A stretch of 64,000 nt of DNA from Thermochromatium tepidum ATCC 43061 (GTDB lineage: Bacteria; Pseudomonadota; Gammaproteobacteria; Chromatiales; Chromatiaceae): assembly GCF_009664085.1 (NCBI RefSeq), contig NZ_CP039268.1, positions 2,647,001 through 2,711,000 on the forward strand, read 5' to 3'. The translations under genes and the position numbers were made by a program. Positions 48,710 through 59,455 of the stretch are shown one piece after another. The notes beneath the pieces are model-generated. The model had not been told where the DNA came from, made no database searches, and saw only the letters and a program-made list of their open reading frames with translations. Every line of letters starts with the position of its first letter. The stretch's first letter is position 1.

Positions 48710-49180
48710 TCAACCCGACTCCAGGACGCGCGTCAGCAGGGCCATCTCGCCGACGGGTTCAGGCACTGGAATACGCACCCGCCAGCCTGAGCCGGGCGCG
48801 ACCTCCAGCGGCTCGCCGCTCGGGGTCGTGAGCTGCTCCAGCCGGAAGATCCGCTTCCCGTTCGGTGTCATCAGCTCCAGGGTATCACCGAGCGCGAATC
48901 GGTTCCTGACCTCGACCTCAACCCAGCCCGGCGCGGCATCCCTCAGGTCGCCGATGAAGATCCGGCGCTGATGGCGCGAGGTGCCATCGCCATAGTTCTG
49001 GGTCTCGTCCGGGGCATGGCGACGATAAAAGCCCTCGGTATAGCCGCGATTGGCCAGTCCCTCTAGATCGCGCTTGAGTTCGGGCCTGAAGGGGCGACCG
49101 GCCAGGGCATCGTCGATGGCAGCGCGATAGGCCTGAGTGGCGCGTGCGACATAGTAGTGCGACTTGGTGCGCCGTTCCAT
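48710..49180 (-). pseudogene. yegQ: yegQ (trhP), C-terminal fragment
   Basis: Leftward frame of 156 codons: RTKSHYYVARATQAYRAAIDDALAGRPF, then GLANRGYTEGFYRRH and the C-terminal barrel (VEVEVRNRFALGDTLELMTPNGKRIF). This corresponds to the end of E. coli YegQ/TrhP after the KIEGRTKS junction. The first three residues (MER) come from the inserted element; native sequence starts at 49171. It is separated from the N-terminal fragment by 377 bp. YegQ is needed for 5-hydroxyuridine formation at tRNA position 34, so this modification may be lost or carried by a paralogue elsewhere. Confidence 0.88.
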
Positions 49181-49548
49181 CAGACTTACTCATTCCTGTT
49201 CACACAGGAACAAAGCTGACTTCCTGCTTCGCAGAGGCCGGTTTCGCCTTGAGCGTGCCCAAGGCCAGAGCCCACCTCTCCACAGGCTGTCACCGAGCAA
49301 TCAGCTTGTCGCTGAAAGGGCTGGCAGCCGCCAACCGAACTCTCGGCCACTTTTTCAGATTGATCGCCGCGTTCACATCGCGGTCGTGGATACTTCCGCA
49401 ATCCGGACACGTCCACTCACGCACCGACAGCGTCTGAGGACACACCCCTAAGAACTCGGCGGCCTCTTGGAGGCATGACCATCTTGCGGACATGCAGATA
49501 TTACAACATTCTCGCAAAAAAGTTCAACTATTAACGAAACTGGTCGAG
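49172..49548 (-). mobile_element. Miniature IS607-type element interrupting yegQ
   Basis: 377 bp between GAGGGG and CGCACC of yegQ. Read leftward it begins with a short leader and then ATG at 49495 opening [22 protein letters not shown], which matches the MerR-like head of IS607 TnpA serine recombinases. This runs in the same frame straight into [25 protein letters not shown], the zinc-ribbon end of TnpB. So the middle of both genes is deleted and both element ends remain. GG dinucleotides flank it on both sides, as IS607 recombination requires. The last 70 bp, ending AAGTCTGATGGAACGG, recur in the relic at 58982. Ends may shift by two bases. Confidence 0.8.
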
Positions 49549-50388
49549 CCCCTCGATCTTGAGACAGTCGATCCCCATGGCCACCAAGCGCTCGACATGC
49601 TCGATGGCGCACAGATCGCGTGAATTGAGGATATAGGTGCCGTGCTCGTCCTCGAAGATCGGCATGTAATCGCCGGGGCGTTTGGACTCTTCCAGCAGAT
49701 AGACCGACTCGGCGGCCGGATGACGCTGTGCCGGCGCGGTCTTGGCCCCGACATCCGCCTTACCCAGACGATACTCCCAGCGGCAGGCGTTGGTGCAGGC
49801 ACCCTGGTTGGCGTCGCGATGATTGAAATACCCCGAGAGCAGACAGCGCCCTGAATAGGCGATGCAAAGCGCGCCATGGACGAAGACTTCGAGTTCCATG
49901 TCGGGACAGGCGTCCCGGATCTCGGCGATCTCTGCCAGGGATAGCTCACGCGAGAGGATGACACGCTTGAGCCCCTGCCGCTGCCAGAAGCGCACGGCGG
50001 CGGCGTTGACCGTGTTGGCCTGCACCGAGAGATGGATCGGCAGATCGGGCCAGTGCTCGCGTGCGAGCAGGATCAGGCCCGGATCGGCCATGATCAGCCC
50101 GTCTAGCTCCAGTTCGACGATGGGCCGCAGGTCGTCGATGAAGGTCTTGAGCTTGGCCCCGTGCGGCATGAGATTGGCGGCCAGATAGAGTCGTTTGCCC
50201 TGTTGGTGGGCCCGCTCGATCCCAGTGGCCAGATTGGCCAGATCGAAGTCGTTGTTGCGCACGCGCAGACTGTAGCGTGGCACGCCGGCATAGACGGCAT
50301 CGGCTCCATAGGCGAGCGCATAACTCAGATTGCGGAGTGTTCCGGCTGGGGACAGGAGTTCGGGGGTCTTTCGGGGAGTCGGAGTCAA
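49531..50388 (-). pseudogene. yegQ: yegQ (trhP), N-terminal fragment, U32 peptidase family
   Basis: Carries the main barrel of the U32 family: PELLSPAGTLRNLSYALAYGADAVYAG, PRYSLRVRNNDFDLANL, LYLAANLMPHGAKL, HLSVQANTVNAAAVRFWQRQG, LEVFVHGALCIAYSGRCLLSGYFNHRDANQGACTNACRW (the conserved Cys cluster) and IDCLKIEG. After KIEG at 49549 the frame runs into the inserted element and stops six codons later (LDQFR). The start is unclear: TTG at 50388 is closest to the E. coli start, and no ATG or good ribosome binding site is in frame. The catalytic Cys are intact, so a truncated product could be made. Confidence 0.85.
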
Positions 50389-58981: not shown

Positions 58982-59455
58982 CCGTTCCATCAGACTTAAT
59001 CTGCTCAGGCATAAACGAATCTGACGTCCTGCTTCACTGAGGCCGGTTTCGCCGTTGTCTTGCGACAACGGCCAGCCCCTTCCACTCCACGGGCGTGACG
59101 TCCGGCAAAACGCGCCGGAGGCGCCGTCGGGACGGCTAGACCATCCGGAAGGGGGTTCCTGGCCGCCTTCAGATCTCGATCTTGGCTTGTACCGCAGACC
59201 GGGCAGACCCAGGCGCGCACCGAGCGCGGCAGCCTCTCTATGCCGGTCCTTGACCATGCCGGGCAGCTTCAGGTCCTCGATCGCGAGGATGAAACCTCCG
59301 CCTGAGCTCAGACCTGAGCCTGTGCAGGGCACCCTGGCGGATGTTGGCGAGTCGGGCATGGCGCCGGGCGAGCCGGATCGCCGCCGTTCTGCGGCGGGCT
59401 AAGCCCTTCTTTCGGCGCGACAGCCGACGCAGGCGAGACAGCAGATGTGGATCGC
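58982..59455 (-). pseudogene. Decayed tnpB with preserved right end (IS607-type relic)
   Basis: Read leftward from about 59450: LSRRKKGLARRRTAAIRLARRHAR-LANIRQGALHRL (TnpB helical segment), then a frameshift to ILAIEDLKLPGMVKDRH, then a jump to RAWVCPVCGTSQDRDLKAAR (zinc ribbon). No intact frame remains. Beyond the coding relic, about 70 bp ending in AAGTCTGATGGAACGG closely match the end of the element inside yegQ, so the right terminus is at 58982 or next to it. The left end is not defined. Confidence 0.78.

Follow-up and report, generated by a model that had tools for sequence, protein, structure and literature searches.

What kind of element interrupts yegQ in Thermochromatium tepidum, how it came to lie there and what so short a sequence still carries were the questions raised by a 377-bp insert in the 64,000-nucleotide stretch of DNA analysed here (the window). 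The whole miniature IS607 element occupies positions 49172..49548 on the minus strand, as delimited by empty sites in relatives and by three more copies that share its ends. On that strand it reads CTCGACC...GGAACGG, and the window shows GAGGGG, the 377 bp and then CGCACC. yegQ was uninterrupted at this position in five of the seven other same-genus genomes searched, and the limits that an earlier note on this DNA had given for the insert proved exact. The empty site in three of them (G001, G004 and G006) is GAGGGG followed by CG, identical to the joined flanks of the window, while G002 and G007 have GAGGGCCG and GAAGGACG, respectively. These empty sites demonstrate that the insertion added 377 bp and that GG alone is repeated at both junctions. 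Chance is ruled out, as the same genome holds four near-full copies (97-100%) and further copies sharing the ends.

The break in yegQ, which the earlier note placed after KIEG and before RTKS, was confirmed by the relatives' empty sites and by the split of the NCBIfam TrhP profile (NF011996). The N-terminal yegQ/trhP fragment (49549..50370, minus strand, start approximate) matches profile positions 3-290 of 449, and the C-terminal fragment (48710..49171, minus strand) matches positions 289-444 of 449 together with Pfam Peptidase_U32_C. An in-frame ATG for the C-terminal fragment (ATGGAACGG) is provided by the right end of the element (window 48710-49180). The gene is indeed broken in this strain, as had been claimed, but the insert is not the only lesion in the pathway. 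Of cmoB, nothing but C-terminal pieces survives (profile 228-314 of 315, one stop; L230, genome about 490,520-490,781), an adjoining ORF contains a CmoA piece that scores 29 bits (cut-off 285), and the TrhO family (PF17773) gave no match in this genome, the control search being positive in 6 of 14 genomes. A full TrhP match was found in five of the seven other same-genus genomes, and TrhP and CmoB co-occur throughout the eight genomes of the genus, both being full in five and both lacking in three, namely this one, G003 (91% complete) and G005. Given the remnant state of cmoA and cmoB and the lack of a trhO match, loss of the whole pathway rather than the insertion alone explains the predicted lack of cmo5U34, and the pathway looks, from these gene remnants, to have been lost at several steps.

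A DNA search of the one-contig genome (2,958,290 bp) with the element returned 23 matches. Both ends were present at nine places, comprising four miniatures, one 279-bp copy (s5) and four tnpB-only copies of about 1.39 kb, and miniature copies number at least five, the insert included, which the earlier note had missed. The four miniatures measure 377 bp (window), 378 bp (m2), 378 bp (m3) and 379 bp (m4), have a single common tnpA/tnpB deletion junction in unrelated flanks, and lack two bases close to the right end that s5 and the four tnpB-only copies retain. The common junction and 2-base deletion at unrelated sites point to one miniature founder that moved after the deletion had occurred, and the presence of the same deletion in four copies at unrelated sites indicates that it was the deleted form itself that moved. 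The pentamer CGCTG lies at the deletion junction and recurs in the lone tnpA as well as in tnpB; four separate deletions between these repeats at the two deletion edges, with no movement at all, could have produced the same join, but would leave unexplained the 2-base deletion confined to the four miniatures, and we consider such repeated events very unlikely. A single mobile founder is preferred for the four miniatures, whereas s5, with a different deletion, no tnpA/tnpB join and no 2-base deletion, is likely to stem from a separate event.

The empty sites of the other eight copies were searched as one joined query, and seven of them gave no junction-crossing match. The empty site of the tnpB-only copy L3 was spanned by matches in five genomes and aligned gap-free to four, three of which have AGGG and one (G007) AAGG. 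One tnpB-only copy (L007, genome 2165579-2166969) was seen by eye to split a chemotaxis-receptor-like gene that is uninterrupted in relatives. Among plasmid records, 11 matched the element, none over 80% of the query, and no match was found in phage records.

The protein-coding content of the miniature was then compared among the copies. The left end, of about 60 bp (49489..49548, minus strand), is common to the copies and carries the promoter-like sequence TTGAAC-16-TGTAAT; a promoter scan found no site in the window copy and scored 10/12 in m4 and L2, both of which have TATAAT as the -10 element. It is followed by a remnant of the tnpA head (the MerR-like helix-turn-helix part; 49428..49493, minus strand), which ends at the deletion junction, and by what is left of the 3' end of tnpB (zinc-finger/TNB region, frameshifted; 49200..49432, minus strand). 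A minus-strand ORF at 49290-49517 spans the join between TnpA head and TnpB tail and was matched by the Pfam TnpB TNB domain, with no Pfam match to a MerR domain at E 0.01. The join of a TnpA start to a TnpB end had been described as one continuous frame; the join is there, but the frame is continuous across it only, and the fused frame does not reach the end of TnpB, as the loss of one base from the tnpB part of the window copy gives the tail NLKKWPRV instead of NLKKVAES. An extra base shifts the tnpA head in m2, m3 and m4, and the tail is shifted in the window copy, m2 and m3. A small functional TnpA-TnpB fusion protein, for instance a regulator, would agree with the open join and the TNB match in the window copy. 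However, the frame is broken differently among the copies, the RuvC core is deleted and the 279-bp copy lacks the join, which makes such a product extremely improbable. The miniature does not encode a serine recombinase TnpA, of which only the broken head remains, and it is not an autonomous IS607. It is short, non-coding, multi-copy and derived from an autonomous element, as in the strict definition of a MITE; of the terminal inverted repeats that the definition also includes, none joins the two ends, the arms found being internal.

IS607 descent is supported by the termini. The insert retains both ends and has GG at both junctions, as noted earlier, and GG lies at both junctions in all nine copies, as expected for insertion at GG with repetition of a 2-bp core. 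Right and left ends are shared with tnpA+tnpB loci elsewhere, including Tibeticola sediminis, which places the insert among IS607 elements as a non-autonomous derivative. The T. sediminis locus (L079) resembles the miniature at the right end (95.8%) and the left end (78%) over the matched parts; unlike the miniature it is full-length, with tnpA present and a TnpB 90% identical, and it serves as the nearest model seen of the parent and not as the parent itself. The earlier note had suggested looking for a full-length IS607 with the same ends in this genome, and DNA, IS607 transposase-model and TnpB searches found none.

Candidate enzymes are nevertheless encoded, on separate elements. The four tnpB-only copies of about 1.39 kb have lost the tnpA interior and encode a 411-aa TnpB without stops, with the motifs GVDLG, IEDLN or IENLN, and HDRDANAA, which we take to be the RuvC triad. 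These proteins scored 303.1 bits with NCBIfam IS607_TnpB (NF038280), below the curated cut-off of 350, 332.9 with guided_TnpB (over 100) and 341.5 with IS200_TnpB (under 425). The IS607 transposase model recognised two places in the whole genome, one of them above the cut-off. This lone tnpA (L025/L027, genome 131937-132491; 217.4 bits) is an intact 215-aa ORF adjoined by a decayed tnpB, with no clear miniature-like left end in its flank by eye. As no full-length copy with the ends of the miniatures is left in the genome, the lone TnpA can be regarded as a candidate helper only. The second IS607-like tnpA (L026/L028, genome 372973-373263; 82 bits, below the cut-off) seems by eye to be internally deleted.

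The right third of the miniature, whose nature had escaped the earlier note, is a complete TnpB guide-RNA (reRNA) scaffold. Forty-six right ends were recognised by pattern in 80 loci, and 41 of them entered the covariance model, L084, L096, L122, L132 and L154 being excluded. The model of 41 relatives contains 34 pairs, 19 with double changes (shuffled mean 12.3), and 97.3% of cells are paired, whereas shuffling gives 85.4% and sliding 27.7-42.9%. None of the five measures was reached in the shuffles (0/500), although the test is tilted towards the structure by the use of one alignment for both. Of the 80 TnpB loci, 41 of which had built the model, 78 contain the scaffold, a covarying structure at the right end beside tnpB. 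In the window, the core overlapping the right end lies at 49172..49292 on the minus strand (model R1, 127.9 bits) and folds with a z of -3.84, none of 200 shuffles folding as well. Scores were 124.8-129.5 bits for the other miniatures, 132.1 for s5 and 127.3-133.6 for the tnpB-only copies. The Rfam family RAGATH-18 (RF03064) matched the window copy weakly (24.7 bits, E 0.032, below the gathering score of 44.9), and at gathering scores the 20 related loci yielded two tRNAs only, with no reRNA or RAGATH-18. Judged from covariation and from the broken frames, what survives in the miniature is a complete TnpB reRNA scaffold more than a protein.

The model was also run on the whole genome, where at least 20 places were found (150 of 1,501 candidates scored): four beside an open TnpB, five in miniatures and 11 others of older appearance. 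Six of these older-looking places were inspected, and in four the 1.6 kb upstream gave no TnpB match. The window itself contains a further IS607 right end, older and reRNA-like in structure (58982-59099, minus strand, 88.5 bits), with tnpB pieces at genome 2706014-2706447. Other genomes were searched with the same RNA model, which matched in at least 16 of 20 (150 candidates scored per genome), and a left-end profile found the left end in three of 28 stretches at E <0.01 (T_250, G5_1475 and G5_1613). No second miniature family was proved in the 20 genomes by the RNA model and TnpB, the relatives fetched being relic-like or cut by contig ends. In G003 there are at least 15 RNA-model matches and weak TnpB matches (best 2.4e-20 among the matches listed), and six right-end/reRNA copies (L172, L174 and L176-L179) are 90-99% alike and mostly cut by contig ends; these could be another miniature family.

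The scaffold may extend further through a pseudoknot. GUUC (49337..49340, minus strand) and GAAC (49174..49177, minus strand) could form its 5' and 3' halves, respectively. An upstream GUUC with GAAC at the 3' end was present in all 45 relatives scanned, with GUUC at exactly -132 in 28, and in all eight copies scanned in this genome (all but L3), where extra bases move GUUC to -169 to -171. A four-letter word alone is weak evidence, and the weight lies on the shared position.

Whether the scaffold matters as RNA is a separate issue. The reRNA overlaps the right end and would be retained for mobility anyway, so that the miniature could be a passive relic consisting of two recombination ends, to which transcript and TnpB are irrelevant. 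Variation among the four miniatures agrees with this explanation, since the scaffold has 7 variable columns of 121 compared with 12 of 258 outside (p 0.62), and this equal variation gives no sign of purifying selection on the RNA; the empty promoter scan of the window copy points the same way. By eye, the changes in the scaffold are mostly pair-keeping or in loops, with a mismatched pair in helix 3 of m2 that recurs in the T. sediminis sequence. Several of the variants are common to the tnpB-only copies and are thus not independent. On the other hand, about 190-250 bp of right end including GUUC persists in either type of miniature, probably more than an end site needs, and the genome contains four TnpB copies with open frames and RuvC-type motifs, and GGG at nine of nine sites. 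We give the passive explanation roughly even odds.

Taken together, we read the insert, with a probability of about 0.88, as a non-autonomous IS607 element moved in trans that has retained its reRNA scaffold, a claim that does not extend to guided cutting. An internal deletion fused the front of tnpA with the tail of tnpB, and an IS607-type TnpA acting in trans, for which the only intact TnpA of the genome is a candidate, would have moved the miniature in circular form, with recombination at GG.

The insertion sites agree with this assignment and bear on a possible role of the guide RNA. GGG precedes all nine copies in the genome, while the bases after the right end are unrelated. The insert had been described as lying between GG dinucleotides; GG is found at both junctions, but the left GGG belongs to the target and the element starts at CTCGACC. 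As GGGG is present in the empty yegQ of three of five relatives, the G run (49549..49552, minus strand) represents the target, its element-adjacent GG being the recombination core. GGG was also seen by eye to the left of seven of the eight left ends in relatives (exception L082). The available passages on ISXfa1, an IS607 element, report a TnpB TAM of GGG and transposon recombination at GG (PMC10711439), and those on other IS607 TnpBs give AGGAG or GAGGG as TAMs (PMC11061315). According to the IS607 reRNA layout given in part of PMC10711439, the predicted guide would be the first 20 nt of yegQ past the right end (49152..49171, minus strand). In the filled yegQ site this stretch is preceded by ACGG, in which the third G is missing, and the filled site would therefore escape the TnpB recognition that the empty GGG site would allow.

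These features raise the possibility that the miniature consists of ends plus a guide-RNA gene, borrowing a TnpA to move and the TnpB of its sisters to cut empty sites. An RNA starting inside the miniature and running into yegQ might be loaded by the TnpB of the tnpB-only copies; the complex might then recognise empty yegQ by GGG and a guide match and cut empty alleles, so that the miniature would be retained. We hold these last two steps with less assurance than the movement in trans, and the scheme as a whole is rather doubtful. If it were true, three kinds of element within a single genome (miniature, tnpB-only copy and lone tnpA) would share out movement, retention and guide between them. 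Should TnpB support copies in trans, retention by a guide-RNA nuclease could extend beyond the element in which the nuclease is encoded, and short elements could exploit it in the way that MITEs exploit transposases. This organism lends itself to a test of such support, since its genome contains miniatures, tnpB-only copies and one tnpA, and the flanks give the guide targets. The finding is also relevant to counts of guide RNAs without a neighbouring nuclease gene.

A search of the open-licence PubMed Central literature found no report of a miniature IS607 or of a TnpB-less guide-RNA element. The novelty consists in a miniature IS607 that keeps its guide-RNA scaffold while nuclease and transposase reside on separate elements of the same genome. 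SMN1 of Sulfolobus islandicus is likewise a short (320-bp), non-autonomous element that depends on a full insertion sequence, ISC1733; unlike the miniature, it is termed a MITE, with no statement of IS607 membership or of a guide RNA in the available portion of the source (PMC3718332). The IS607 TnpBs guided by RAGATH-18 resemble the present case, in the passages available, in the position of the RNA at the 3' side of TnpB and in a GAGGG TAM, besides the weak RAGATH-18 match obtained here, while the scaffold described here stays below the Rfam gathering score and overlaps the coding end of tnpB; the same source reports that 64% of RAGATH-18 RNAs (10,258/16,029) adjoin IS607 TnpBs (PMC11061315). 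ISXfa1 of Xylella fastidiosa, as far as the available part of its description goes (PMC10711439), shares with the miniature GG/GG recombination and the GGG TAM, a likeness by published description and not by direct sequence comparison, but carries its proteins, which the miniature has lost. Its reRNA, of about 150 nt, runs past the right end, and the pseudoknot reported there between the 3' end and about -130 corresponds in position to the GUUC found at -132 in 28 of the 45 relatives scanned.
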